Of a stretch of 64,000 nucleotides of DNA, positions 7,415 to 23,572 are shown piece by piece (the first letter of the stretch is position 1; every line of letters starts with the position of its first letter). The stretch lies in contig JAUVYV010000005.1 in assembly GCA_030602885.1 (NCBI GenBank), positions 1 to 64,000 on the forward strand, read 5' to 3'. Below the pieces are notes generated by a model. It was given only the letters and a program-made list of their open reading frames with translations, was not told the DNA's origin and searched no databases. Position numbers and translations under genes: made by a program. This stretch comes from Phycisphaerales bacterium. GTDB lineage: Bacteria > Planctomycetota > Phycisphaerae > Sedimentisphaerales > Anaerobacaceae.

Positions 7415-10069
7415 CTAATTAAGCGTCTGCATCCACTCTTCGGCCAGTATTGCGAAGTCCCTGAAGTTCACCGCCTTTGAGCCGGCCGGCTCTTCATCCC
7501 AAATATTCGCTATAGAGTCCAGTTCGTAATATACTATCTCACCGCCTGCCAGATATTTGACCTCATCTTTTATCAGCGCCCGATTATAGAGCCGAATATC
7601 ACTCAGCCAGCCCTTGAAAAACAGCTCGGCATAATTCGACCCCGATTTGATGGGGCAACCACCTAACTTGTGCCTGAAAGGCAGCTCTTCAAAATCCTCA
7701 CTCACAGTGGCACCCAGCAATACGTTGCAGTCATTATCGATGAAAATCCCGGAGCGCTCAGGATTACTTTCACCCCAGAAGTCTACTTTATCAAGAGTTC
7801 CATCCCGATACAGACGGGATATTTCCAGCTCATCATTCCAGACTCCGGCAACGTGGTACCACGTGTTATTAGAGAAAAGGTTGGTTCCTCCCGTGCCGCC
7901 TCCCGGCGATCTTGGAAAAGCAAAGTGCGACTTATTCACTCCCAGGAGCATCTGAAGCTTCCACTGAATCTCGCCCTTTGATGCAAAATTGGCCCACACC
8001 AGGGTTGTCTCCTGTTTCACCCATGCCGCAACGGTGAACGAAGAATTGTTGAAATCCGCCCAGGTGTATGGGTCCGTCCACGTGCATGGGTCGCAGGGGT
8101 CTGCGCCGAAGTTTTTCCCTCCGCCACAATCCACGTAGTCCGTACCGTCAAAGTACAGACACCAACCTCGCTGACCGTCCTCGATCCAGCTTGGGTCATA
8201 CGGGGTTGTTGCGAACGTTCCGTGATGTGCGTTGCCGCTCGAATCCGTAACCGTCGTTCCGTCGTTTGGATCGTTCACATCCCAGCGTGCAACGAGATTG
8301 TCTGTTCCCGGGTCCTTGGCGCCGGCAAACAGGTCTATTGCCATCCAGTCCTGGGCCATCACATTGAAGTCGTTGATATCCACTATGTCATCGTGGTTGA
8401 AATCCGATTCCAGGTCGATCAACGGAGGTCCCTGAAGTGTCACTACGCTCCTGGCCGGTACCGTCACCGATACCTGACCGCTCGATACAGCCAAATCGTT
8501 TAACTGCCTGAAGTTCTCGTTTTCGCTCGTTCGATGAACGCTGTATGCAGTAATGCCGAAAAGCGAAGGCACGTTGATTGTCACCGAATACTGAGTTGTC
8601 TTTCTGTTTACGAACACAATTGTTACTTCTTCATCTTCATCTTGCACAAAAGCGCTAACGTTCAGGCTCAGGTCCGTCCGCATCGGATCGCTGCCGTAAT
8701 CATAGGAGCTATGCCCACCTGCGAAAGTCGCCGCCACGCGCTCGGCCCCGGGCCGGATAGGCCTGAAAAACTGTTTGGCGGCAGAGTACTTTTTGCTTCT
8801 TGTCGGTATCTGCAGATCATCTGACGCAACCAGCTCGTGGGTGCCCGGCGTCGAACCGCCGGAAACGAACTGCCAGTATATATAGCCGCTGACGTTGCCC
8901 CAGACCAACTGGTCATGTATATCCTGCGCAAGGTCGAGACAGCCGTTCCAGTCAGCGTTGTGGCGACCCGCTTCCGAATTCCATGACTGCTTACCTTCTC
9001 CGTCTATCCCCGGCGCGTAAAGCCAGGCCGCCCACGGTTCAGAGGGCATTGAGTCCTTGCCCTGCCAGTAGGCCCTCCACATCTTCGCCCGCGAACTAAT
9101 CGGTGCACTGTAATTATTCGTGAAAATGTGCAAAAAGTCCGTCAAATTGGAATCGGGATGGTCCCAAACCGCCTTGATGTACTGCATCTGCTGATTGAGA
9201 TTGTACGGGTTTGACGGGCTGGCCCAGATATCGGCATGGTGAGGGCCCATTATCTTCTCGCTCATAAACCCTGCCCCATGCTCTGCATTGAGCTGCTCAA
9301 ACTCATCTTTGACCGCCTTGAGGGCCCCGGCATACTGCCAATACTGACCGGATGGGCCATTACCGCCTTCATTTGGTTCGGCACCGGTATAATACGTACA
9401 ACTGTCGAACGGATTCTCATAGCTAAGCTCGTTTTGCAGGCTGATACCATATAACGGTATTCCAAAATGCTGCTCGAAACCTCTTGCCCAGGCGGCTATA
9501 TATCTGCCGAACTGCTCTAAGTTGTTGGGATCCTGAAGCAGGCGCCCGCCAATACTATCACCGCATGTCCCATCGCAACCGAATAGATAGGGAGTTTTCT
9601 CGCCCGGCGAGCCCGGCGGTTCTGTAACATGTGCAACATATGCGCCTGTCGGCCCTTTCATCCAGTGAGGCGGCGTCCACAATGAGCCGACTATCTTCAC
9701 CCGCTCCGGCTCAAGGGCGTTATTCCAAAGCCACAACGCCATATTTCCTACCCCCGCCTGCGTGCTGAAATCCATAGCGGCAATGTTGTCGTTGATACCC
9801 TCAACCAGCTCCACCGGCGTAGCATAGTTCCCGTCGGGCGCAACCAGCACTTCTTTGTTCATCGGAATACGAAGCAGGTTGCATCCGAGGTATTTATAAG
9901 CAGTTCGCCAGTCGGAGTCGTAGGATGAGCCAGCGGTGCCCCAGCCCTCTATCGTCTGATACCTCGTACTCTCGTCAATCGTCACCGTCTGCCCGTTCCC
10001 TACACAACTAATCAGTACCAACACTGTCAAAAAAACAATAACTTCACCCCACACACTTTTGCTGAACAT
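7415..10069 (-). CDS. Secreted GH30-like glycoside hydrolase with LamG domain and split dockerin
   Basis: An 884-residue exported protein. The signal peptide contains LISC, so it may be a lipoprotein. The catalytic part resembles GH30 (clan GH-A): QTIEGWGTAG near residue 40, acid/base in SLQNELS, nucleophile in WNSEAGRH, then a beta domain. Next come a dockerin-like half (DFNHDDIVDINDFNVMAQDW), a concanavalin/LamG-like domain (starting DSSGNAHHG) and a second dockerin-like half at the very C-terminus (AVNFRDFAILAEEW). The tail is shared with the adjacent gene. The likely substrate is a xylan, a glucan or another beta-linked polymer. The ATG at 10069 follows AGGAGA with good spacing. Confidence 0.85.
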   Translation of the reverse strand: MFSKSVWGEVIVFLTVLVLISCVGNGQTVTIDESTRYQTIEGWGTAGSSYDSDWRTAYKYLGCNLLRIPMNKEVLVAPDGNYATPVELVEGINDNIAAMDFSTQAGVGNMALWLWNNALEPERVKIVGSLWTPPHWMKGPTGAYVAHVTEPPGSPGEKTPYLFGCDGTCGDSIGGRLLQDPNNLEQFGRYIAAWARGFEQHFGIPLYGISLQNELSYENPFDSCTYYTGAEPNEGGNGPSGQYWQYAGALKAVKDEFEQLNAEHGAGFMSEKIMGPHHADIWASPSNPYNLNQQMQYIKAVWDHPDSNLTDFLHIFTNNYSAPISSRAKMWRAYWQGKDSMPSEPWAAWLYAPGIDGEGKQSWNSEAGRHNADWNGCLDLAQDIHDQLVWGNVSGYIYWQFVSGGSTPGTHELVASDDLQIPTRSKKYSAAKQFFRPIRPGAERVAATFAGGHSSYDYGSDPMRTDLSLNVSAFVQDEDEEVTIVFVNRKTTQYSVTINVPSLFGITAYSVHRTSENENFRQLNDLAVSSGQVSVTVPARSVVTLQGPPLIDLESDFNHDDIVDINDFNVMAQDWMAIDLFAGAKDPGTDNLVARWDVNDPNDGTTVTDSSGNAHHGTFATTPYDPSWIEDGQRGWCLYFDGTDYVDCGGGKNFGADPCDPCTWTDPYTWADFNNSSFTVAAWVKQETTLVWANFASKGEIQWKLQMLLGVNKSHFAFPRSPGGGTGGTNLFSNNTWYHVAGVWNDELEISRLYRDGTLDKVDFWGESNPERSGIFIDNDCNVLLGATVSEDFEELPFRHKLGGCPIKSGSNYAELFFKGWLSDIRLYNRALIKDEVKYLAGGEIVYYELDSIANIWDEEPAGSKAVNFRDFAILAEEWMQTLN

Positions 10070-10106
10070 TATACTTCTCCTCATTAACTTGTTTTTCTGC
10101 TTGACT

Positions 10107-12716
10107 CTAAGGGCCTGTCACCATCCACTCGTTCGCCAAAAGCGCAAAGTCCCTGAAGTTCACCGCCTTCAAGCCCTCCGCTTCCTCATCATATATGTTC
10201 GCAACGGAATCCAACGGAGTGTATGTTGATGGGATACCGGCTAAATACTTTATCTCCAGTTCGTTCAACGCCCGCTCATACATCCTGACTTCACTCAGGT
10301 AACCATTGAAGAATCGCTCGGCGTATCCCGCCGCGTCACCACGAAGCGGGCAGCCGCCTATTTTATGCCGGTTCGGGTCCTCAAGATAACCCTCGCTCAC
10401 CGTCGCACCAATCAGCACGTTACAGTCATTGTCGATAAACACCCCCGCACCCTCCGGATGCGCCGTACCATAATCCATCCAGTTGTCTAATACACCGTCA
10501 AGGTAAAGATACGCCGACTCATTATCCTCGTCCCAGAGCCCGGCAACGTGGTACCACTGGTTGTTCAATATCATAGCGCTGCCCCCTAAGCCGCCCGGCG
10601 TCCGCGGAAACGCAAAGTGCAAGAGGTCAAGAAAAAGCAGGAACTGAAGCTTATACTGAATCTCACCCTTGCCGACGAACACGCCCCAGTCCGGGCTGTT
10701 GTTCTGGTTTATCCAGACCGATATCGTAAATGACGAACTTGCAAAATCAGCCCACGTACACGGGTCCGTCCATGTCTCCGGGTCACACGGGTCGGCCCCT
10801 GCGTTCTTGCCGCCGCCGCACTGAATGTAGTCGCCGCCGTCGAAATACAGACACCACCCGCGCTCGGCGTCGTTAAACCACGTCGGGTCATTCACATCGG
10901 CACCGACCGCCGAACCCAACATCCCGTCTCTTGCGTTCCCGGAGTCATCGACTGCCACATCTCCTGAAGAGGCGTCCAGCGGCCACCAGGCAACAAGACC
11001 AACGTAGCCCGGGTCTTGCGAACCTGTGAAACCATCCTGCAGCATCCAATCGGTCGCCATCACGTTGAAGTCCATAATATCTACAACGCCGCTGTTATCA
11101 AAGTCCGCCAGCAACGTTTCATCCCCCAAAAGCTCACGCATCGCCTGAAACTTGTAGTTACGATCCGGATTGGCCAAGTCGTCGGTGAGGCCCCAGAACC
11201 CGTAGCGAGTGGCGGAGCTCTGTAGCGTAAACTGTATCGCTATATTGGCTCCAAGCGCAAAGAACGCATCATCGTAATTGTACTTAAGAACCTCGCCGCC
11301 TCGCGGCACACGATGCATCATAATCTTGTTGTCCAGATTCTCCAGCACACCGTTCGCCGGGGAGTGATACCCTCCCTCATAAGAGCACGCTCCACCGACA
11401 AGTCCCCACGTCGCCGCCTTTTGCACCCACTGAAGCCGGCCCGCTTCGCCCCCCCCCGTCTCGCTCATCTGCCCGTCTATGTCCGTCACGCAGGCGTCAA
11501 GCAGCTGGTCAATCGTCCTTGTGTCCGGACTCGGGTCACCTGCACTGAAATATGTCTGTCTCGCTATCGCATATATGTAGTCAGATGCCGTGCCAGGGAA
11601 GTTGCTGTTAATGTACGGAATCATATAGGTCTCGACCCACCACTTCAGCATCGGGGCGTGACAGCAAAGCATAACCCGCACTCGATTGTTCAGAGAACCC
11701 GTGCCGAAAACACTCTCAAATATCTGCGCAAGCTCTACCGTCTGCCGTGCGTAGTTCTCATGTTCATCTATCCCCAATGCACCGGCCTGAGCCGCACTCC
11801 AAATCTGCTGATAGAAAATACCGTTCCACACCTCGTTGCTGTTCTCAACGTAAACGTGCAGGTTCGGGTCGAGATTGTCTCTGAACATCGTCGCTAATTG
11901 CGTCACATAATCCGTTGTCGCTGAGACCGGCACGTTGATCCATGGGTCCATTCCCGTCATGTTCGCTATCTGTATCACATACTCCCATGCCGCCCCCTGT
12001 GGCTTGCCTATGGCATCGATCGGAACCTGCGCCGCATCAGTCACAAGCTTGCGGTCCGACCACGACAGTGTCGCAGGATAAGTTGCCTCGTGACCGTTCG
12101 TCGCCGTCACGTTCATATACCGAACCACGCCGAAACTTGCGCTCGTCAGCGTGTTTATGAAATCATCGGTAAAGGTCTGCATCGTATCACCCGCATACCC
12201 CGGCTTGATCATTTTCAAATCCGTAAATCCGGTATCCGTACTGCTTACAGCCGTCCGTTTGGTGTTCGTAAAGTCCAGATGGCAGTACGCTCGCTTCTGC
12301 GTAATGATAAGATCGAACGTCGTCGTGTTCGTCCCTGAATCATAACTCTTGTTCGCTATCGATGCCCCGGACGCGCTCAACGTCGCCTGCCCGACAAACG
12401 AACACTTGTACGTCCCCGTGTTGTCATACCGGTACTCCTCCGGATCGTCAATCTCTCCAATCCATTCCGCCACTAAGCGAAAATCCATAACAAGCTGCGC
12501 ATCACACGAAGGCCAACCCTCGCTGTCATACGCCATCGTCCCGCTCGGCAGCCGGCTGTACCGGTGGTGCTCCTTCGCCATATCGACAAATATACCCCCC
12601 CCTTCACCGACACCACCAATGTTAACGCCCATCTGACCCGGATACGTCGCGCCGAACCCCGCCGCCGATATAACCATCAACGCAACGACACCTGCACACA
12701 CCGATTTGCCCGACAT
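10107..12716 (-). CDS. Secreted glycoside hydrolase-like protein with LamG domain and split dockerin
   Basis: An 869-residue protein with a type I signal peptide (MSGKSVCAGVVALMVISAAG) and an AGGAGG ribosome site. The N-terminal part of about 520 residues is not a family I can name with certainty. VENSNEVWN (Asn-Glu) and YEGGYH (Glu) look like the acid/base and nucleophile of a clan GH-A barrel, so a glycosidase is likely. The tail repeats the architecture of its downstream neighbour: dockerin-like half (DFDNSGVVDIMDFNVMATDW), LamG-like domain (GWCLYFDGGDYIQCGGGK), dockerin-like half (AVNFRDFALLANEW). Only 37 bases separate the two coding regions, so they are probably co-transcribed and share a duplicated tail. 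Confidence 0.75.
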   Translation of the reverse strand: MSGKSVCAGVVALMVISAAGFGATYPGQMGVNIGGVGEGGGIFVDMAKEHHRYSRLPSGTMAYDSEGWPSCDAQLVMDFRLVAEWIGEIDDPEEYRYDNTGTYKCSFVGQATLSASGASIANKSYDSGTNTTTFDLIITQKRAYCHLDFTNTKRTAVSSTDTGFTDLKMIKPGYAGDTMQTFTDDFINTLTSASFGVVRYMNVTATNGHEATYPATLSWSDRKLVTDAAQVPIDAIGKPQGAAWEYVIQIANMTGMDPWINVPVSATTDYVTQLATMFRDNLDPNLHVYVENSNEVWNGIFYQQIWSAAQAGALGIDEHENYARQTVELAQIFESVFGTGSLNNRVRVMLCCHAPMLKWWVETYMIPYINSNFPGTASDYIYAIARQTYFSAGDPSPDTRTIDQLLDACVTDIDGQMSETGGGEAGRLQWVQKAATWGLVGGACSYEGGYHSPANGVLENLDNKIMMHRVPRGGEVLKYNYDDAFFALGANIAIQFTLQSSATRYGFWGLTDDLANPDRNYKFQAMRELLGDETLLADFDNSGVVDIMDFNVMATDWMLQDGFTGSQDPGYVGLVAWWPLDASSGDVAVDDSGNARDGMLGSAVGADVNDPTWFNDAERGWCLYFDGGDYIQCGGGKNAGADPCDPETWTDPCTWADFASSSFTISVWINQNNSPDWGVFVGKGEIQYKLQFLLFLDLLHFAFPRTPGGLGGSAMILNNQWYHVAGLWDEDNESAYLYLDGVLDNWMDYGTAHPEGAGVFIDNDCNVLIGATVSEGYLEDPNRHKIGGCPLRGDAAGYAERFFNGYLSEVRMYERALNELEIKYLAGIPSTYTPLDSVANIYDEEAEGLKAVNFRDFALLANEWMVTGP

Positions 12717-12922: not shown

Positions 12923-13696
12923 CTATCCCCTGTTCCCCTCTCCCGCCGGGTCCTGATGGTAAAATTGCTGCAACTCCCTATAAAGCTCAGGATGCCTCTC
13001 ACTAAGCTCTCTCGGCTTCTCGAAAAACACCTCCGTCGCAACCGCAAAAAACTCAGCCGGACTCACCGCACCATAAGCACGAAGCACCGTCGGACTGTGC
13101 GCATCCACGTCCCGACGCAACTGCTCGTAATTCGCGCCCAATACACGCGCCCACGCAATAAAACTGGAGCGACGCCGAAGAACCTCGCTGCTGTCACCAC
13201 GTCCTCGCGAGCTGTCGAGCTGATGCGCAAACTCATGAAACACCACGTTCTCGCCGTCATGAATATCCGCCGCACCGCGACAAACATCGTCCCAGCTCAA
13301 TACCACCGACCCTCGCCGCCACGATTCGCCTAATCGAACCTCCGCACCTTCCGCTATCAGCCCGCCCTCGATGCGCCTCTTTGCCTTCGCCACGTATGCC
13401 TCCGGATATACCAATATCGTCTTCATACCCGGATAATAATCCGTCCGGCGATGCAAAAGCAAAATGCACGCCTGAGCAGCTATCGTCACACGTATCTCGT
13501 CCATAACCTCCAGACCCCGACAGCCCACAAATCGCTTCTCCGAAAGAAATATAAGTATATGCCTCTGCAGCTCTCGCTTGTCCCCTTCCGTCAGCCGACC
13601 ATAGTAGGGCACATTCCTCTCGATTATACCAAGCCACTGAGCGGGAAATCTCCCCCCACCGATTCGTCTCCGCCGCCGATTCTTAAACCAGCCCAT
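12923..13696 (-). CDS. mtfA: MtfA/M90-family zinc metallopeptidase
   Basis: A 257-residue cytoplasmic protein of the MtfA (Mlc titration factor A) family. The zinc motif HEFAHQLD is present, with a downstream Glu in SPAEFFAVATEVFF as the likely third ligand. The C-terminal ending YRELQQFYHQDP is typical. In E. coli, MtfA binds the repressor Mlc and has peptidase activity; no Mlc gene is seen here, so its role is open. The ATG at 13696 is chosen; a GTG at 13708 would add four residues. It lies 59 bases downstream of the nfnAB-like pair, on the same strand. Confidence 0.85.
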   Translation of the reverse strand: MGWFKNRRRRRIGGGRFPAQWLGIIERNVPYYGRLTEGDKRELQRHILIFLSEKRFVGCRGLEVMDEIRVTIAAQACILLLHRRTDYYPGMKTILVYPEAYVAKAKRRIEGGLIAEGAEVRLGESWRRGSVVLSWDDVCRGAADIHDGENVVFHEFAHQLDSSRGRGDSSEVLRRRSSFIAWARVLGANYEQLRRDVDAHSPTVLRAYGAVSPAEFFAVATEVFFEKPRELSERHPELYRELQQFYHQDPAGEGNRG

Positions 13697-13755
13697 ATAC
13701 TTTCGCACCCCGTGACATTCTTACCTCACCTCTTGTCTCGCCGCAACCGCCCGCA

Positions 13756-15204
13756 TCAACCGTTCTGTCTTCCCACCAGGTACCTGTCTATACTCGCCGC
13801 CGCACACTTGCCGTCCCCCATCGCCAGAATCACCGTCGCTGAACCGCGCACAATATCCCCCCCCGCGAACACACCGGCAATACTCGTCATCATATTATCA
13901 TCGACCTCGATATACCCCCACTTGTTCAGCTTCAGCCCCGCCGTCGCCTTTGTCAATAGCGGATTCGCTCGTGTCCCTATCGCAACAACAACAAGGTCGC
14001 ACTCAATCTCAAACTCCGACCCCTCAATCGGCACCGGCCTGCGCCTGCCGGATTCGTCCAGTTCACCCAGCCGCATCCGGATGCACCTCAGCCCCTTCAC
14101 CCAGCCCTTCTCGTCACCCAGCACTTCTACCGGCGCGGTCAGAAACTCGAACTTGATATCCTCCTCCTCTGCGTGTGCCACCTCCTCAGCCCGCGCCGGC
14201 ATCTGCTCGCGAGCACGCCTATAGACAATCATGCTCTCCTCCGCCCCCAATCGCTTGCTCGTCCGCACCGCGTCCATTGCGGTATTGCCGCCGCCGATTA
14301 CACAGACACGCTTGCCACGAATAATCGGCGTATCCGCCCGGGCATCGTACGCCTCCATCAGGTTCGACCGCGTCAGATACTCGTTCGCCGAATAAACCCC
14401 CTTGAAATTCTCGCCCGGTACGTTCATAAAACTCGGCAGACCCGCACCGACCGCGATGTACACCGCATCAAAACCTTCCTCGCCCGTAAGCTGCTCAAGT
14501 GTCAGCGTCCTGCCCACAATCACGTTAGTTTCAATCTTCACACCCAGCGATTCGAGGTTCTCAATCTCATCGGCCACCACCCTGTTCGGCATACGAAATT
14601 CCGGTATCCCATAGACCAGAACCCCGCCCGGCTTGTGAAACGCCTCGAATAGCGTTACATCTACACCCATCTTCGCCAGCTCACCCGCACAGGTAATCCC
14701 CGCAGGCCCCGACCCGATGCACGCAACCTTCTTACCGGTCTTCGCTGCACTCGCTTTAGGCCGGCCGCTCCGATGCTCCACTTCGTAATCGGACACAAAA
14801 CGCGCAAGCCACCCAATCGCAACCGGCGCATCCGTCTTGCACCGAACGCATTTCACCTCGCACTGTGTCTCCTGAGGACATACCCGCCCGGTCACCGCCG
14901 GAAGATTATTGTCCTTCCGCAGTATCGCAGCCGCACCCAGAAAATCACCCTCTGCTATCAGCTTGATAAAACCCGGTATATCAATCCCGACAGGACATCC
15001 CTCAACGCACCTCGCCGTCTTGCATTGCAGGCACCGCTGCGCCTCGCGTATCGCTGCCTGTTCACCAAGCCCTAAATTCACCTCCTCGAAATCCTTGTTT
15101 CGCTCTCGCCCCTCGCGTTGCGGCATCTCCACTCGCGGTATCGCCATCCGCTCCTTCGCACTCGGCTTTTCACTTCTTTCAACCGAATCTTCCTCGCGGC
15201 TCAT
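13756..15204 (-). CDS. nfnB: NfnB / glutamate synthase small-subunit-like NAD(P) oxidoreductase
   Basis: A 482-residue FAD and NAD(P)-binding iron-sulfur protein. The N-terminal cysteine motif CLQCKTARCVEGCP (about residues 58-71) and a second set, CPQETQCEVKC, can hold two [4Fe-4S] clusters. GSGPAG and GGGNTAMDA mark the two dinucleotide-binding folds, and GVFAGGD near the C-terminus is typical. It lies directly behind an NfnA-like gene. Together they should form NADH-dependent reduced ferredoxin:NADP+ oxidoreductase, which bifurcates electrons in anaerobes; a glutamate synthase small subunit is the alternative, but no large subunit is nearby. The start is uncertain: the ATG at 15204 has GAGG upstream, while a TTG at 15225 is also open. 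Confidence 0.88.
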   Translation of the reverse strand: MSREEDSVERSEKPSAKERMAIPRVEMPQREGRERNKDFEEVNLGLGEQAAIREAQRCLQCKTARCVEGCPVGIDIPGFIKLIAEGDFLGAAAILRKDNNLPAVTGRVCPQETQCEVKCVRCKTDAPVAIGWLARFVSDYEVEHRSGRPKASAAKTGKKVACIGSGPAGITCAGELAKMGVDVTLFEAFHKPGGVLVYGIPEFRMPNRVVADEIENLESLGVKIETNVIVGRTLTLEQLTGEEGFDAVYIAVGAGLPSFMNVPGENFKGVYSANEYLTRSNLMEAYDARADTPIIRGKRVCVIGGGNTAMDAVRTSKRLGAEESMIVYRRAREQMPARAEEVAHAEEEDIKFEFLTAPVEVLGDEKGWVKGLRCIRMRLGELDESGRRRPVPIEGSEFEIECDLVVVAIGTRANPLLTKATAGLKLNKWGYIEVDDNMMTSIAGVFAGGDIVRGSATVILAMGDGKCAAASIDRYLVGRQNG

Positions 15205-15226
15205 CTGCATCTTCCTCAGCTTCAAA

Positions 15227-16075
15227 TCACTGCTGTCGAAGCTTGCACTCGTGGTCCTTGTACCTTTTCAGTGTCTTTTGCTCATGGTCCCTGTACGTCG
15301 TCAGCCGATCCATCAGCTCATCGAAATCAACCTCGTGCCCGTCGAACTCGGGCCCGTCAACGCACGCAAACTTGCGTTTGCCCCCGACCGTAACACGACA
15401 GCCCCCGCACATCCCCGTCCCATCGACCATCACAGGGTTCAAACTCACTATAGTGCGTATATTCAACGGCTTCGTCACCTCCGAAACATGCTTCATCATT
15501 ATCACAGGCCCGGCACAATACACCGCATCAACGTTCGTCTCATCCTCCTCCAGAAGCATCTTCAATGCATCCGTCACAAGCCCCTTCATCCCCGCACTTC
15601 CGTCGTCCGTCGTCAGTATCAGCCGGTCACTCACCGAAGCGGCAAGCTCCTCTAATATCAGAAGCTCCTTCGTTCGCGCCCCGATTATGCTGATGATTTT
15701 GTTCCCCGCATTCCGCAGCGCAACCGCCTGTGGATAAACCACCGCCGTCCCTAATCCACCCCCGATGACAACCACCGTCCCGTACTTCTCGATATGGCTC
15801 GGCTGGCCCAAAGGCCCCGCGACGTCCGCAAAGCCCTGGCCCTTCTCAAGCCGCGTCATCTCAAGCGTGCTCTTGCCCACTGCCTGAACTATCAAAGTTA
15901 TCGTCCCGCGCTCAATGTCCACATCCGCTATCGTCAGTGGTATCCGCTCCGAATGCTCGAGCGCGCGCACTATCACAAACTGCCCGCACTTCCGCGACCT
16001 CGCTATCCGCTGCGCACGAATCTCGTACTGCGTCACGCCGGATCCAATGCTCTTCTTCTCAACAAGCTCATACAT
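15227..16075 (-). CDS. nfnA: NfnA: ferredoxin-NADP+ reductase subunit alpha
   Basis: A 282-residue flavoprotein of the ferredoxin-NADP reductase/dihydroorotate dehydrogenase electron-transfer family. The N-terminal half is the FAD-binding barrel. VVIGGGLGTAVVYPQA marks the NAD(P) domain, and the cysteine cluster GTGMCGGCRVTVGG plus FACVDGPEFDGHEVD near the C-terminus binds a [2Fe-2S] cluster. It stops just before the NfnB gene, a tight arrangement that supports a two-subunit complex. It would balance NADH, NADPH and ferredoxin pools and fits a fermentative lifestyle. Confidence 0.9.
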   Translation of the reverse strand: MYELVEKKSIGSGVTQYEIRAQRIARSRKCGQFVIVRALEHSERIPLTIADVDIERGTITLIVQAVGKSTLEMTRLEKGQGFADVAGPLGQPSHIEKYGTVVVIGGGLGTAVVYPQAVALRNAGNKIISIIGARTKELLILEELAASVSDRLILTTDDGSAGMKGLVTDALKMLLEEDETNVDAVYCAGPVIMMKHVSEVTKPLNIRTIVSLNPVMVDGTGMCGGCRVTVGGKRKFACVDGPEFDGHEVDFDELMDRLTTYRDHEQKTLKRYKDHECKLRQQ

Positions 16076-16275
16076 CGCTCTGTCCCGTACTTAGCTGCTC
16101 ACACGGCAAAAAAATGCATTATAGGCATATTACCCGCCCGGTAAAATCAAAAGTGAAGGCCCCTGACATTAACCATGTCTTTATTGCAGCCATTGCCGCA
16201 CAAATCGCTTCAAATAGCTGAAATGGGAAAAATCTCCTCCCCTGACCGTTTTCCCGGCCGCTTATGATTGCTTGA

Positions 16276-19200
16276 CTATCTTCCCAATGCCCCCAGACAG
16301 TCCGGACAGAACAAATGGCCCGAGTCTATCCTCACCAGCACCTCTCGCGCCACATCCTCCCGACCGCAGCAATCGCACGCACCAGTGCTCGCCGGTATCT
16401 CACGAATCTCTATCGGCACCTCCTGGGCCTCCTCCGCATGTCCCTCTCTTTCGCTCTTGTCCCTCTCAGTCGCGACCGCCGCCTCAGACTCCTCAGCCGG
16501 TTCGGCCTCTGTTTCTCCCTGGGAATTTCCCTCCTGCTCGGCTGTCACCTCACACGCAGCTTGTAACTCTGCAAGCTCCTCGAACCTCTCTCTCGCCTCA
16601 TCCGCACCGGCAAGCTCCTCTTCTGCCTTTGCCCTTGCCTCGGTCTCCTCCCTCAGTCTGTCCTCGACATCCAGCATCGCCTCTGCGTTAATTCTTGCAT
16701 TCTCCTGGGCCTGGATCCTTGCCTCAGTCTCCGCCTCAAGTTTGCTCTGCATCTGTGATATCGACTCTGCTTTCGCCGCAAGTTCCCTCTCTAATTCAGC
16801 CGTCTTCTCCGCGGACGCTTTCACACCCCCCTCCCACTCTTGGCTATCCGCATTCGCAATCTCTAATTGCTCCCTCAGCCCGCTCGTCTCGCGCTCGTAC
16901 CTTTCTTCCCATGCCCTTAATTGCGCTCCCATCTCCCCGCCGACCTTCGCCTTTTCCTCTATCGCCTCGCTCGCCCTGGCTTCTGCCTCACGCCTCGCCT
17001 GCTCCTGTGCCTCTGCCAATACCTCTGCCTTTGTCCTGGCCTCCGCCTCCTGCCTCACCTTCTCTTGCGCCCTCTCTTTCGCCGCGATTTCCACCTTCAG
17101 CTTCTCTTGCGCCTCGGCCCGTGCCCTGTCAAGCAATTCCAGTTTCTCTTCAACCTCAGCAAGTCGCTCTGAATATGCCCGCACGTTTTCCTTCGCCCGC
17201 TCGCCCGCTTCGACTTCCGCCTCTAACTTCCCCTGCGCTTCCACAAGCGCCTCCGCCTGCTCTGCAGCCCTCTTCTGCGCCTCAGCCAAATGCTCCCCGT
17301 GTCCTCTTGTCCTTTCTTCCAGCTCCGTTTTTCTCTGTCTCTCTGCCGCCAGCTCCTCCTTCGCCTCACTCAGCAGCTCACTCAAAGACCGTGCCCTTTC
17401 ACTCGCCGCCGCTACCGACTCACCGTATGCCTGCGCCTTCTCTTCGAGCTCACTCCGCATCTCCCGCTCCACCTTCGCCCTCGCTTGCGCCTCCTGCCTT
17501 GCCTTCTCTTGCGCCTCGGCCCTCGCTTGTGCCTGCGCCTCTGCAAATGCCTCCGCCTTCACCCTTTGCTCTGCGATTCTCTGCGTCTCCTCCTCAGCCG
17601 ATTCTCTCGCCTGCAATTCCTTCTCAACTCGCTGCTCGGCTTCCACTCTTGCATCCGTCGCCGCATCGACTTTGCTCTCTAACTCAGCCAGCGCCTCGGC
17701 ATACATCTTTGCCTCCTCCTGCGCCTCCGCCCGCGCCTCCGTCTCGCTGCTCACCTGCGACTCAATCTTCGCAAATTGCTCAGCCAATGGCCTCAACTGC
17801 TCCTCGGCCTTTATCCTTGCCTCCATCTCAATCCTCAGCTTCTCTTCCACCTCAGCCCTGGTCTGCTCGAATGCCTTCACCTTCTCCTCTAACTCAGCTT
17901 TCGTTTGGCGCTTTGACTCAGCAGATTCTTTTACCGCCTCCTCAGCCCTCTGTTGGGCCTCAGCACACAACCTTGCCTCTGCCTCGCTCCTCGCCTGCGC
18001 CTTCGCACTCTCCTGTGCCTGCCTTCGCGCTTCCTTCTCAGCCATTGCCCTTGACTCAATCTCGCCCCTCAATTTTTCCTGGTCCTCCGCCGCTGCTTCC
18101 TCCAGTACCTCCAGCTTTTTCTCCATCTGTTTTACTCTCTCGGCATAACCGCTGAGATGCTCTTCCGCACGGGCCCGCGCCTGTGCCGCTTCAGCCGCCT
18201 CCTGCTGCGCCTCACTCAACGCATCCGCAAGCGACCTCGCCCTCTCCTCCGCACTGGCTATTCGCTCTCCGTAGTGCCTTGCCTTGACCTCTAATTCCAC
18301 CTTCACCTGCTGCCGCTCCTGCGCTATCGTCTGCGCCTCGGCATTCGCCCTTTGCTCCGCCTCAGCCCGCGCCTTTGCCTCGGCATCCGCTCGCGCCTGT
18401 GCTCTGGCCCTTTCCTCCGCTTCCAGTTGTACCTTCTGTTCCGCCCTCAGCCGCGACTCCGTCTCGGATTTCAAACGCTCCTGTGCCTCAATTCTCGCTT
18501 GAATTGCCGCCTCACTTTGCTCTTCTTTCTTTGCTGCCTGCTCATCATGGTCTCTCAGCTCTTCCGCCAGCTCCTCCCTCGCGCCAATCTCCGCACTCAG
18601 CTTCTCTTCCGTCTCCGCCTTCGCCTGTCTCTGCGCCTCCAATTCCCCCTGAATCTGCTCCAATGCCGCCGCATTTTCTGACGCCTTCTCTTCTGATTCA
18701 CTCCGTAGTTGTCCGGCAAGCTCTAACCTTTCCTCCGCCTCTCTCAATTGTTCCGCAAGCGACCTTGCCCTCTCTTGCGCCCGGGCAATTTGCCGTCCGA
18801 ACTGCTTGGCCTTCTCTTCCAGCTCATCCCTCGCTTTCGCCTCGAACTTCTCTCGCGCCTGCACTTCGCTGCCCAGCCGCTCCTCCGCTTCCACCCTTGC
18901 CTTTGCAGCGGCCTGTGCAATCGCTTCTGCCTTCGCCCTTAGCTCTACCGCCACCTGCGCCTTCTCATCAGCCCTGCGCCTCGCATCCGCCGCTTCTGCA
19001 AGTCGCTCCTGCAACTGCGCCCGCAGCTGACCGGCCGCCTCCACCTCACTCTTCGCCTTCGCTGTCACCTCCTCATTCGCCTGGGCCTGCGCCTTGACTC
19101 TTGCCTTCGCCTCGACCTTCGCCATCCGCTCCGCACGCCCGTCCGTCGCCTCCTTCAGCTTTCTTTCAAGAGCAGCTATTCTTTCCACCTGCCCCTGTGC

Positions 19201-22200
19201 AATCCTCTCCGCCTTCGCCCGCGCCTCGCTCTCGGCAGCCAGCTTCTCTTGCAATTCAGCCGCCGCTGCCCTTTGAACCCGCACCTCCTCACTCACCTGC
19301 GCCAATTGCTCACCGCTGCGCCTCGCCTGCTCCTGCGCCTCGCTCCTCGCCTGCCGCTCACCCGCCAACTGCTCCTCAAGCTCAGCCCTTCCCTGCGATT
19401 CCGCCCCCAACCGCTCCCGAACCTCAGCGGTCTCCCGCTCGTACGACCTGGCCTTTTCCTCCGCAGACGCTATTGCCTCGCCGTACGCCCTCGCCTTCTG
19501 CTCTAATTCCGCACTGGTCTCCTTCACAATTCGGGCCCGCTCCTGCGCCTCATTTCTCGCCCGCTCGTGCGCCTCGGCCCTGGCCTTCTCAGCCGCCTCT
19601 CTCGTCGCCTCTGCCTCCGCACGCCTCTCAGCTTCCCGCCTCCGGTTTTCTTCCGCCCTTGCTCTCGCCTCCGCCTCGCCGCCCGCCTTCTCCTCTGCCT
19701 GCTCTCTCGCCTCAACCGCCTCTCTCAGCCGTTCCTCCAGCCTCGCCCTCTCCTGCAACTCTGCCTTGAGCATCCGCTCCGCCCGCTCCCGCGCCTCGGC
19801 TTCACCTTCCCGGCTCGCCTCCAGACTCGCCCTCTCCTCGGTAACTCTGTGCAGTTTCTCCTCCGCCTCCATCCTCGCCTGTGTCACCGCCTCCAGTCTT
19901 CCCTCTGCCTCCAGCTTCCCTTTGGCCTGCTCATCAAGCTGCCTCTCCAATTCGCCCACCCCGTTACTGAGACTGTTCACCTCATCTTCCGCCTGTGTGC
20001 GTGCCTCGCTTTGCTCTGCCAGCTCCTTTTGCATCGCCGCTCGATTTTCACTTATGTCCTCAAGCTCGTCTTTCGTTTCCGCAAGTTCCTTAGCCAACGA
20101 CTCCGCATTTTCTTCTGCCTCATTTTTGGCCTCTGTCTGTAATCGCAGTCTTTCCTCAGCTTCCTTGCTCGCCTCGAAGCTCGCTTTCGCCTTCTCTTGC
20201 GCTTCTCTCGCCTTCTCCACCGCCGTCGCAATTCGCTCACTGTAAATCCGCGTCTTCTCCTCAAGCTCAGCCCGCGTCCGCCGCTCAAATTCTTCTCTTG
20301 CCTCAGCTTCCTCCTTAGCCCTCACCTCCGCTTGTGCTCCGGCTCGCTCCGCCGACTCTGCCCTCGACACCGCCCCCGCTCGCTCCTCGCCAAGCCGCTC
20401 AGCCCGCTGCTGTGCCCTCATGCTCGCCTGCGCCTCAACACTGGCTTTCTCCTCCGCCTTCGCCCGGGCCCTTGCCGCCGCCTCCAGCGCCTCTTCTATC
20501 TCGCCTATTCGCTCGACATAACCTTTTCCCCTCTCCTCCAGCTCTGCTCGCTCCTCCACCTCACCCTTAAGTCGCTCCTCAAGCTCCGCTCTGCCCGCAT
20601 GCTCTCCCGCAAGCTGCTCAGCTAATTGCGCCACTTCGTCCCCGCTCTCCTGCGCTCGTTGCTCGGCTTCCTCCCGCCCTTGCCGCTCTTTTTCCCTCTG
20701 CTCCTCAGCCGCCGCTCTCTTCTCAGACTCTGACCTCAGCCGCTCCCGCAATTCCGCAATTGCCTCCCCATACTCTCTCGCCTTCTGTTCTAATTCCCCC
20801 TTCGCACGCCGCTCTCCTTGTTCTCTCGCGTCCGTTTCTGCTCTTACTCGTTGCTCCGCCTCTGCCCGCCTCTTTGCCTCCGCCTCCGCAACCGCCTGTG
20901 CCTTCGCCCTCAGCTCGATCTCTGTCTTACTTCGCTCCTTAGCCGCGATCCGCTCCTGCCTCTGTGCCTCCAGCTTCTCCTCTGCCTCCTTTAACCTACG
21001 CGCCTGCTCTTGCAACCGCTCTTCTAATCGTGCAACTGACTCGCTCAGCCCCGCTGCCCTTTCTTCGCTCTCCTGCCGCGCCTTACCGGCCGCACCCGCC
21101 TCATCTTCCGCCTTCAGTCTCGCCTCAATCTCATCATTTACTTCCTGCCCCAGCCCCTCTGTCAGCCGCCTCTGCTCTGTAAGCTGCCTCTCCAATTCCG
21201 CCATCGACTCGCCGAGCCGCTTTACCTCCGCCTGCGTCTGCTCGCGAGCCGCACTCTCACCTTCCAGCCGCTCCTCAGCCGCACTCCTGCCGCCGCTTTC
21301 CCTGTCCAGCGCCTCTCGCACTTGCGCAAGCTCTTGGGCGTACTCGCTTGCCTTCCTTTCCGCTTCTGCTCCTCGCTCGACCTCAGCCGCCAGGCCGGCA
21401 CGCGCTTCTTCAATCGCCTCACCAAGCGCCCTCGCTCTCTCCTCAGCTCTCGCTACCGCCTGCCCGTAATCTCTTGCCCTCTGCTCTAATTCCGCCTTCG
21501 TTGCCTTCTCCACTTCTGCCCGCGTTTTTACCTCTGCCCTTGTCCTCTCCTCGGCATCCGCCGCCCGTGCCTCCGCCTGCGCCCTTCTCTCAATCTCCGC
21601 CTCTGCACGCTGCTCCGCACGCCCCCTCGCCTGCTCTTCGGCTTGTAATCTCTCCTCCAGCTCTGCCCTCGTCTCGGTTTCCGCCTCGAGCCCTTCGGCA
21701 AGCCGTGCCACCTGCTCGCCATAATCCTCCGCCCTCTCCTGGGCCTCGACCCTCGCCTGCGCCTCAGCCCTTAGCTTCTCTTCCGCTTCCGCCAGCGCCT
21801 CACCATACGACCTCGCTTTCTCCCTTAAACTCGCTTCCGCCTGCACCCGTTGCTCACCTTCCGCCCGCGCCTTTTCCTCAGCGCTCCGGCGCGTCTCAAC
21901 CTCCGCCTCCAATTTCTTTTGCCTCTCAACCCGTCCCTTACACTCCGCCGCCAGCTTTTCTTGCGCCTCCGCCCTCGCCTTTTGCTCTTCTTCTAACTTC
22001 CGTTCCGCCTCCTTTATCGCTGTCTCGTACGCCCTGCTCTTCTCCGCAAGCTGCTGCTTTAGCTTCTTTTCAATCCGCTCTCTCGCCTGTGCCTCCGACC
22101 GCGCCTTCTCCTGTGCAACTGCCCTGGCCTTGGCTTCTGCCTCTGCTTTCTTTTCCGCCTCTGCCGCATGCCTCGCCTCCGCCTCCGCATCCTCCTCCGC

Positions 22201-22530
22201 TCGTGCTATCGCCTCCTCAAACGTCTCCTGCTGCGCTCTCGACTCCGCCTTTTCTTTCGCCCTCGCCTCTGCCTGCCTCAGTTTTTCCGCCCTCACCTGC
22301 TCTCGCGCCTTTCTCTTCACCCGGGCTTTTTCCTCTCGCTGGGCCTTTGCCCTTGCCCTGGCCTCCGCCTTTGCGCGCGCCTTTACCTTTTTCGCGTTGA
22401 CACAGGGAACCAAAGGATGGTGAGGCCAGTGCTTCTCACCGCATATCGGACACGTCGGGACGAACCTCTCCTCGCCAGAGTTTTCCTCTTGCGTGGGACT
22501 ATTCCTGCCGGCGTTTCTTTTTGCGTCCAT
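16276..22530 (-). CDS. Giant coiled-coil protein with terminal Cys/His motifs
   Basis: A 2,084-residue protein with no recognised family. The N-terminus has CPICGEKHWPHHPLVPC (about residues 27-43), a likely zinc-binding knuckle. The C-terminal 40 residues hold CDCCGRE and FCPDC, another likely zinc ribbon. Nearly everything between is Ala, Glu, Arg, Lys and Gln in heptad-like order with very few Pro or aromatic residues, predicting a long coiled coil. No signal peptide or membrane segment is seen, so it is probably cytoplasmic. A motif like ELEEKARxYGExIAxAEERARSL recurs about eight times, suggesting growth by internal duplication. The ATG at 22530 is chosen; a GTG at 22539 would add three residues. 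A scaffold, spacer or SMC-like role is possible, but no ATPase is present. Confidence 0.85.
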   Translation of the reverse strand: MDAKRNAGRNSPTQEENSGEERFVPTCPICGEKHWPHHPLVPCVNAKKVKARAKAEARARAKAQREEKARVKRKAREQVRAEKLRQAEARAKEKAESRAQQETFEEAIARAEEDAEAEARHAAEAEKKAEAEAKARAVAQEKARSEAQARERIEKKLKQQLAEKSRAYETAIKEAERKLEEEQKARAEAQEKLAAECKGRVERQKKLEAEVETRRSAEEKARAEGEQRVQAEASLREKARSYGEALAEAEEKLRAEAQARVEAQERAEDYGEQVARLAEGLEAETETRAELEERLQAEEQARGRAEQRAEAEIERRAQAEARAADAEERTRAEVKTRAEVEKATKAELEQRARDYGQAVARAEERARALGEAIEEARAGLAAEVERGAEAERKASEYAQELAQVREALDRESGGRSAAEERLEGESAAREQTQAEVKRLGESMAELERQLTEQRRLTEGLGQEVNDEIEARLKAEDEAGAAGKARQESEERAAGLSESVARLEERLQEQARRLKEAEEKLEAQRQERIAAKERSKTEIELRAKAQAVAEAEAKRRAEAEQRVRAETDAREQGERRAKGELEQKAREYGEAIAELRERLRSESEKRAAAEEQREKERQGREEAEQRAQESGDEVAQLAEQLAGEHAGRAELEERLKGEVEERAELEERGKGYVERIGEIEEALEAAARARAKAEEKASVEAQASMRAQQRAERLGEERAGAVSRAESAERAGAQAEVRAKEEAEAREEFERRTRAELEEKTRIYSERIATAVEKAREAQEKAKASFEASKEAEERLRLQTEAKNEAEENAESLAKELAETKDELEDISENRAAMQKELAEQSEARTQAEDEVNSLSNGVGELERQLDEQAKGKLEAEGRLEAVTQARMEAEEKLHRVTEERASLEASREGEAEARERAERMLKAELQERARLEERLREAVEAREQAEEKAGGEAEARARAEENRRREAERRAEAEATREAAEKARAEAHERARNEAQERARIVKETSAELEQKARAYGEAIASAEEKARSYERETAEVRERLGAESQGRAELEEQLAGERQARSEAQEQARRSGEQLAQVSEEVRVQRAAAAELQEKLAAESEARAKAERIAQGQVERIAALERKLKEATDGRAERMAKVEAKARVKAQAQANEEVTAKAKSEVEAAGQLRAQLQERLAEAADARRRADEKAQVAVELRAKAEAIAQAAAKARVEAEERLGSEVQAREKFEAKARDELEEKAKQFGRQIARAQERARSLAEQLREAEERLELAGQLRSESEEKASENAAALEQIQGELEAQRQAKAETEEKLSAEIGAREELAEELRDHDEQAAKKEEQSEAAIQARIEAQERLKSETESRLRAEQKVQLEAEERARAQARADAEAKARAEAEQRANAEAQTIAQERQQVKVELEVKARHYGERIASAEERARSLADALSEAQQEAAEAAQARARAEEHLSGYAERVKQMEKKLEVLEEAAAEDQEKLRGEIESRAMAEKEARRQAQESAKAQARSEAEARLCAEAQQRAEEAVKESAESKRQTKAELEEKVKAFEQTRAEVEEKLRIEMEARIKAEEQLRPLAEQFAKIESQVSSETEARAEAQEEAKMYAEALAELESKVDAATDARVEAEQRVEKELQARESAEEETQRIAEQRVKAEAFAEAQAQARAEAQEKARQEAQARAKVEREMRSELEEKAQAYGESVAAASERARSLSELLSEAKEELAAERQRKTELEERTRGHGEHLAEAQKRAAEQAEALVEAQGKLEAEVEAGERAKENVRAYSERLAEVEEKLELLDRARAEAQEKLKVEIAAKERAQEKVRQEAEARTKAEVLAEAQEQARREAEARASEAIEEKAKVGGEMGAQLRAWEERYERETSGLREQLEIANADSQEWEGGVKASAEKTAELERELAAKAESISQMQSKLEAETEARIQAQENARINAEAMLDVEDRLREETEARAKAEEELAGADEARERFEELAELQAACEVTAEQEGNSQGETEAEPAEESEAAVATERDKSEREGHAEEAQEVPIEIREIPASTGACDCCGREDVAREVLVRIDSGHLFCPDCLGALGR

Positions 22531-23075
22531 CCTGAACACTCGTTCCGAATCAGAATCCAGCTCTCACCGCTCTTCTTGGCGCTAAGAAGTGAAACAAATA
22601 TTCCACTCCTCCGCATTCGCTCTTCTAACATTTCCCCCCTCACTTTTCAAGCACAAACATTTTATAGGACCTACCTTTCCCGCCCAAAAACCACACACAC
22701 CCCACAAAGCACCCCCAGCACGCCCCACCCCCCTCACCCAGCTCTGCCCAATATTCCCAAATATCCCCAATAATCCTTGCCATGGACACCTCTTTTTGCT
22801 GCAATTTACCATATATTTAGTATCGTCCCAAAGTTTGTGGGTAACAATTTCCCGAACGACCAACCGTAAGAATTACCTATGTTGCAGCACCCGGATCATT
22901 GATCTGTTCCCAAACACAAAGGGCTGCTGTAAGTCCCTGCGTACTCCAGAGCCGAGGCACAGGTCTTCATCATATCCACAACCTTTGGGACGTTAATAAG
23001 AAATTGCAGACCGGCGGGGAAAAAACGGCCAGTGGGGGGTTTGAACTGGGCGGCGGATCGGAGTCCGGGGTCGGC

Positions 23076-23572
23076 GCGACCCTGGCGGGTCGCTTGAAAA
23101 TTGGGTTCGTTTTGGGTTTGAATTGGGTTCGTTTTTTTGCGGCCCGAAGGTCATATATTTTACGTAATCCCTCTTCTTGTATGGAGTTAGGTTCATTTTG
23201 GGGTTTTCCGAAATTGGGTTTGAATTGGGTTTGTTTGGGTTTGCTTTTCACCATTCGAAGGGGTGAATATTTTTCGTAAGCCCTTTTCAGGTATAGAGTT
23301 AAGTTCATTGTGGGCCTTGTGAAAATTGGGTTCGTTTTGCATAAAAAGGTTGTAAATTGCCAGCAAGTTAAGTTGGGCAATATAGGCGGTTTTGTTTTTA
23401 GACACAGATTAACGCTGATTAACACTGATTTTTGAAAAAGTTCAAGAGCTGAGAAACAAAATATAACATCTTGTAAATGGGCGGCCATTGTTGAACCTTC
23501 CGAGTTTTTTGTTTTTTATCAAGCTTTCATATGTTAGCCAAACATTATACAACATGGCGGGTTAAATGTCAA
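23076..23572 (-). repeat. Dispersed repeat element, copy B
   Basis: Inverted partner of the element at 585-1061. It starts with the perfect promoter at 23544-23572 and has the shared ATG at 23488 after GAAGG. The long conserved segment follows, then an AAACCCAA tract and the hairpin GCGACCC-TGGC-GGGTCGC (23076-23093). From the ATG an open frame of 172 codons runs to 22970. It encodes a Lys/Asn/Pro/Thr-rich peptide with repeated KTNPIF and QTQFKP words. The same frame is broken in copy A, so I do not call it a confirmed gene. Copies A and B point toward each other across about 22 kb. Confidence 0.75.
23544..23572 (-). promoter_or_regulatory. Perfect sigma-70 promoter of repeat copy B
   Basis: On the minus strand: TTGACA (23567-23572), a 17-base spacer and TATAAT (23544-23549), identical in both boxes and spacing to the promoter of copy A. 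Conservation extends into the spacer (CCATGTTG) and downstream (GCTAACATAT), so promoter and repeat body move as one unit. Confidence 0.7.

Follow-up and report, generated by a model that had tools for sequence, protein, structure and literature searches.

The question raised by this 64,000-nt stretch (the window), taken from a contig of a Phycisphaerales bacterium of the order Sedimentisphaerales, is what could be served by a single gene for a 2,084-residue coiled-coil protein with a Cys/His motif at either end, as a sequence-only reading had described it. The window comes from contig 103 of 128 of a metagenome-type assembly of 3.2 Mb. The description holds, with the open reading frame (ORF), its start and both motifs located (Table 1). 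On the minus strand 16276..22539, 2,087 codons are open from a GTG and 2,084 from the ATG at 22530; the ATG is the likelier start because orthologues open with MDVNR, MDIKR or MGIDE where the window protein has MDAKR. Residues are counted here from the GTG. The ratio of nonsynonymous to synonymous substitution rates (dN/dS) was determined in pairs of same-genus relatives, the window species having no congener in the genome set, and came to 0.16-0.33 for the complete gene and 0.16-0.32 for the rod alone. This indicates that the ORF is a real gene and that purifying selection acts on it in the relatives. Large plus-strand ORFs across the same interval are unsupported and were rejected as GC-rich antisense read-through. 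Its product is a new form of bacterial coiled-coil rod protein, in which the two zinc-type ends make up a pair that had not been described.

The protein consists to about 71% of Glu (23%), Ala (22%), Arg (12%), Gln (7%) and Lys (7%). Near-absence of proline had been noted, and of the 11 prolines in the protein the rod contains just one, P1584. The family had not been recognised from the letters, and the searches yielded none either. Pfam gave zero families at E<=0.001 with the whole protein and none with the end pieces searched separately, the end motifs gave nothing at the curated level in Pfam, NCBIfam and PHROGs, and PDB sequence-profile searches returned only noise. A single weak PHROG match was observed with the C-terminal module (phrog_2945, unknown function, E 2e-4). 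No signal peptide or transmembrane segment was found in the window protein, where the highest 19-residue hydropathy is 1.04, at the C-terminal module; together with the negative Pfam scan this agrees with the earlier statement that an ATPase and a signal peptide are missing. A surface fibre or autotransported adhesin was rejected for lack of a signal peptide or membrane anchor. SMC/Rad50 proteins share the very long coiled coil, but Pfam detected no ABC-type ATPase head at the ends, a hinge is also missing, and the ends are instead zinc-type motifs of about 30 residues. A literature search for papers on coiled-coil proteins of Sedimentisphaerales found none.

At the amino-terminal end, the residues C, C, G, H, W, P and C of the motif are invariant across 25 aligned sequences. 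The second His of the HH pair varies, and the likely candidate zinc ligands are therefore C30, C33, H37 and C46. AlphaFold2 (25 sequences) predicted a small Cys/His turn followed by a single continuous helix (mean pLDDT, the model confidence, 90; about 91-98 in the helix). The basic character of this helix is shared by all full-length members, with 14-21 Lys/Arg versus 4-10 Asp/Glu per 50 residues. The motif resembles the CCHC zinc knuckles of the retroviral nucleocapsid type in its C-X2-C-G..H...C arrangement, in the invariant C, C, H and C (25 rows) and in the basic residues before or after it. It differs in its spacing, which is C-X2-C-X3-H-X8-C (or X6) and not C-X2-C-X4-H-X4-C, and in an invariant HWP.

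At the carboxy-terminal end, residues 2055-2081 read CDCCGREDVAREVLVRIDSGHLFCPDC (CDCCGRE...FCPDC), and the invariant positions are four Cys and an SG in the order C, C, S, G, C, C; in alignment A4 the cysteines are C73, C76, C96 and C99. AlphaFold2 (15 sequences) gave a confident 35-residue module (pLDDT about 87-96) with short strands and a helix (97-104 in A4 numbering) that starts at the last CxxC. The model contains a CxxC knuckle, a beta hairpin and a CxxC in the first helix turn, and the module is predicted to be a treble-clef-like zinc finger. The same arrangement is found in the zinc fingers of CsfB and the ClpX N-domain (PMC5890618), from which the module is set apart by its IDSG...C signature, the lack of a Pfam/NCBIfam match and its mobile C-terminal placement. 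Matches to solved treble clefs were weak (lowest Foldseek E 0.044; VIA Z no higher than 3.9; root-mean-square deviation 1.2-7) and were to short treble-clef-type chains, namely RING/IBR halves, LIM, GATA, L24e-like ribosomal proteins and ClpX. A strong fold match was not expected because the domain is so short.

The rod between the two ends was analysed with COILS, for which the matrix was entered by hand. A coil at P>0.5 was assigned to 84% (weighted) or 93% (unweighted) of the residues, starting at residue 102 or 48, respectively, and ending at 1995. The coil had been called continuous; it does run nearly throughout, but has one clear break and several short weak or register-shift points. 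Hydrophobic residues recur with a period of 3.515 residues and a power of 57 versus a shuffle maximum of 7.2, which is far above chance. Charge recurs every 7.06 residues, and the heptad period above 7.0 points to occasional single-residue skips. Each of the 16 type-A rods examined had a hydrophobic heptad signal higher than its shuffles. At full extension the roughly 1,890 coil residues, of 0.1485 nm each, would amount to about 280 nm, and the proposed span of some hundreds of nanometres is reasonable on this assumption. The rod also carries the motif ELExKAxxY[GA][ED]xI, with 8 matches in the window protein and others in rods from further genera and from family f2. A profile of 6 window copies scored 99-108 in several orthologues versus 28-50 in heptad-preserving controls.

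The length of the rod was found to change at a single locus. In genus g6, where the gene lies between conserved flanks, the proteins have 1,164, 1,790, 1,999 and 2,037 residues. The rods of same-locus congeners differ by up to 870 residues, or up to 1.7-fold, and the ends are fixed. The 1,164- and 1,999-residue proteins (L065 and L143) are 83% identical where aligned and differ by blocks of 42, 178, 268 and 355 residues; a second pair (L068 and L146) is 84% identical and differs by blocks of 71, 132 and 137 residues. Across the family, the length of the rod varies almost four-fold with nearly unchanged tips. Collapsed repeats in the assemblies could contribute to these differences. The indel lengths in the rod alignments showed no clear preference for multiples of seven.

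Profiles of both ends (A1, A2) were searched in 161 Sedimentisphaerales genomes, and the N-motif was found in about 33 of them (convincing scores) and the C-motif in about 54. In a class-wide search the N-motif was restricted to the order; weaker C-motif matches extended to other families of the class. For either motif, no further match at E<=1e-5 was obtained in a phylum sample of 294 genomes outside the class. All 18 uninterrupted N-motif ORFs without a CBS pair (744-2,860 residues; the window and 17 genomes, L063-L068 and L143-L153) are closed in the same frame by the C-motif, when ORFs cut by a contig end or a run of N are left aside. The C-motif variants of L149 and L153 were judged by reading their C-termini. 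The invariant residues of both ends are kept in the alignments, so the end motifs are conserved across orthologues, as the sequence-only reading needed. Its expectation of orthologues with intact synteny was borne out in part: they exist, with flanks conserved inside genera, but the distribution is patchy and the congener G015 has the syntenic left-flank genes without the rod gene. The gene is therefore accessory. A knuckle closely similar to the N-motif, IPTCPKCGKKHWPFQKCK, was observed in a 1,108-residue ORF (L238:3855-7181) of the phage contig IMGVR_UViG_3300011118_000008. A viral origin was rejected, as the viral contigs contain no relative of the C-module and this one knuckle only.

Judged from its occurrence in other sequences, the C-module is mobile and has been shuffled onto other protein types. 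Type B proteins of about 180-330 residues consist of an LPGxxYQKxxRWWWKVKLPGE domain, a short coil and a terminal C-module. The same domain heads the full-length tyrosine recombinases L231 and L234 (Pfam Phage_integrase) and is therefore very probably the arm-type DNA-binding domain of recombinases, from which the type B proteins were apparently recruited. Unlike these recombinases, type B proteins have no catalytic domain and end in the IDSG module; the likeness to these recombinases concerns the type B relatives, and the arm domain is absent from the window protein. The C-module also terminates some tyrosine recombinases, proteins with the polyphosphate-binding CHAD domain (PMC6537752) and short proteins that have a single hydrophobic segment (L178, L049 and L182). 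Being common to arm-domain, recombinase, CHAD and transmembrane-helix proteins, it is predicted to be a general docking module. The N-motif, in turn, heads the rods L072, L073, L074 and L157 in one or two copies, and these close with a CBS pair rather than the C-module; in L073 and L074 no hydrophobic heptad signal above shuffles was observed.

Taken together, we tentatively favour a solitary cytoplasmic tether or scaffold, held by its N-end on a polyanion and docked by its C-end on a partner, and give this reading a probability of roughly 40%. The gene would yield a stand-alone rod, probably a parallel dimer, with the reach calculated above. Its Cys-Cys-His-Cys motif and basic helix would bind the polyanion, most likely DNA or RNA, and the treble-clef-like module would dock the rod on the partner. 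The exact reach would be loosely constrained and of little importance, because the rod is freely shortened and lengthened by gain or loss of repeat blocks without loss of the ends or the heptad pattern. In favour of a tether, the basic helix follows the N-motif in all full-length members, while the window rod carries a net negative charge overall (-6.4 per 100 residues). The variable rod length, the mobile C-module on DNA-binding-type proteins and the basic N-helix make us lean to a tether or scaffold over a shape-determining filament.

Several points weigh against it. The model of the N-motif had no match above noise among PDB structures (nucleocapsid knuckle, E 9.1), and matches at noise level do not show a new fold. 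For the C-module even the top PDB match is weak, at Z 3.9, and domains with a treble-clef fold serve many functions. The neighbours of the rod gene are unrelated metabolic genes, conserved only within a genus, and therefore suggest no partner. The patchy distribution, with one congener lacking the gene, speaks against a core function. The analysis establishes the gene, its ends conserved in a single frame, the heptad rod with its variable length at one locus, the mobility of the C-module and, by prediction, its treble-clef-like fold. Zinc binding, dimerisation, nucleic-acid binding by the N-end, docking by the C-end and the tether function are steps that we infer. An operon or a conserved partner gene was rejected on the same neighbours, and a separate promoter-like site serves the redox pair downstream. 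In a wider version, which we regard as unlikely, the family would form an order-specific linker system with the N-end on nucleic acid, a freely evolvable rod length, and the C-module as a docking tag for one common partner, shared with recombinases and with arm-domain, polyphosphate-binding and membrane proteins.

The main rival is an intermediate-filament-like, coiled-coil-rich cytoskeletal protein, in which rods would join side by side into filaments with an influence on cell shape or growth, their assembly being regulated by the zinc ends. The window protein has what defines bacterial rod-domain proteins, a coil of more than 80 residues without a signal sequence, transmembrane segment or enzyme domain (PMC2680258). 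Its long heptad rod with alternating charge fits such an assembly, as does the ability of the treble-clef modules of CsfB and the ClpX N-domain to dimerise (PMC5890618). Crescentin, FilP and the cyanobacterial coiled-coil-rich proteins (PMC2680258, PMC7002697) likewise have a long coil, small ends, a cytoplasmic location, no enzyme domain and a variable rod architecture, but the window family differs by its conserved Cys-rich ends and its same-locus length variation, and no sequence relationship was found. A variation of up to 1.7-fold at one locus is hard to fit to the lateral packing of fixed-length rods, the C-module also occurs on short proteins almost without a rod and on recombinases, and the presence of the gene is patchy. 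The filament fits the length variability less well than the tether, and we consider it rather doubtful. The window protein is also several times longer than crescentin or FilP.

A long nucleoid- or RNA-associated protein of the histone-H1/AlgP type would coat polyanions with its basic, Ala/Lys-rich N-part, the remainder being bulk. The KA-rich helix behind the N-motif and the strongly basic rod of the type C relative L073 (net +14.9 per 100 residues) agree with this, but only about the first 65 rod residues are basic in the window protein, the rod is acidic overall with clear heptads, and the conserved C-module would be left unexplained; we give this reading little chance. No better are the prospects of a rod that is largely a single stable alpha-helix and would hold two binding ends apart as a stiff monomer. 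The sequence is highly charged and Ala-rich, opposite-charge pairs at i/i+4 are about twice as frequent as expected (0.094 vs 0.049), and the a/d positions are just 34% large hydrophobic and 27% Ala; against this stand the strong heptad periodicity of all the type-A rods tested and the agreement of weighted and unweighted COILS. That the rod is neutral low-complexity sequence from repeat slippage and unequal recombination, merely joining the ends, is very improbable: hexamer-based tandem runs in the DNA, the block gains and losses and the patchy presence would suit it, but dN/dS is low in the rod itself, the ELExKAxxY[GA] motif is common to rods of different families and the heptad pattern is retained throughout.

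Table 1. Coordinates of the features (window positions, or positions in the named locus)
Feature	Position	Strand	Basis or remark
Giant coiled-coil rod gene with putative zinc caps	16276..22530	-	2,084 residues from ATG; 2,087 from GTG at 22539; orthologue starts; dN/dS in relatives
N-terminal Cys/His motif CPICGEKHWPHHPLVPC, residues 30-46	22402..22452	-	conservation over 25 aligned sequences
Strongly basic helix immediately behind the N-motif, 22 K/R vs 11 D/E over 64 residues	22210..22401	-	charge count; AlphaFold2
Coiled-coil rod, residues 102-1995	16555..22236	-	heptad period 7.06 (hydrophobic 3.515)
Rod motif copy 1, ELEQRARDYGQAVARAEERARALG, residue 350	21421..21492	-	
Rod motif copy 2, residue 582	20725..20796	-	
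Rod motif copy 3, residue 1011	19438..19509	-	
Rod motif copy 4, residue 1239	18754..18825	-	
Rod motif copy 5, residue 1415	18226..18297	-	
Rod motif copy 6, residue 1697	17380..17451	-	
Sole clear coil break, residues 1871-1909, glycines and tryptophans	16813..16929	-	COILS; periodicity analysis
C-terminal four-Cys treble-clef-like module CDCCGREDVAREVLVRIDSGHLFCPDCLGALGR, residues 2055-2087	16279..16377	-	conservation; AlphaFold2; weak treble-clef matches
Type B proteins	L076:2941-3507, L077:1986-2696, L078:9017-9571, L163:156-701, L167:7209-7748		probable integrase arm-type domain, short coil, C-module
Tyrosine recombinases with terminal IDSG/ESG four-Cys module	L179:5392-6210, L181:5385-6158		
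CHAD-domain proteins with terminal four-Cys module	L166:5041-6576, L237:3-1289		L237 also has arm-type domain

Just upstream of the rod gene, a high-copy interspersed repeat of about 390 bp (23090-23480) was observed, which contains a 73-nt internal duplication and has 66 matching pieces in its own genome (69-100% identical); Rfam gave no match. Downstream, a redox gene pair (13756-16075, minus strand) encodes a DHODB-type Fe-S/NAD-binding subunit and a Fer4_20/Pyr_redox_2 subunit and resembles an NfnAB-type ferredoxin-NADP reductase; a sigma-70-like promoter match at 16118-16145 belongs to this pair. On the same strand follow an M90-family, MtfA-like metallopeptidase (12923-13708; Pfam PF06167) and two adjoining large proteins of 889 and 869 residues (7415-12716), each with Laminin_G_3, the first also matching a GH30 C-terminal domain.

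In eukaryotes, cell structures are well known to be joined by very long coiled-coil proteins; from bacteria such proteins are, to our knowledge, hardly known. With its conserved ends, its rod-length variation at the level of the locus and its reused C-terminal zinc-type module, the family is a clear test case. Finding the target that the C-module binds would explain the rods and the DNA-binding-type, polyphosphate-binding and membrane proteins at once, and would also bear on the organisation of the cell interior in Planctomycetota.

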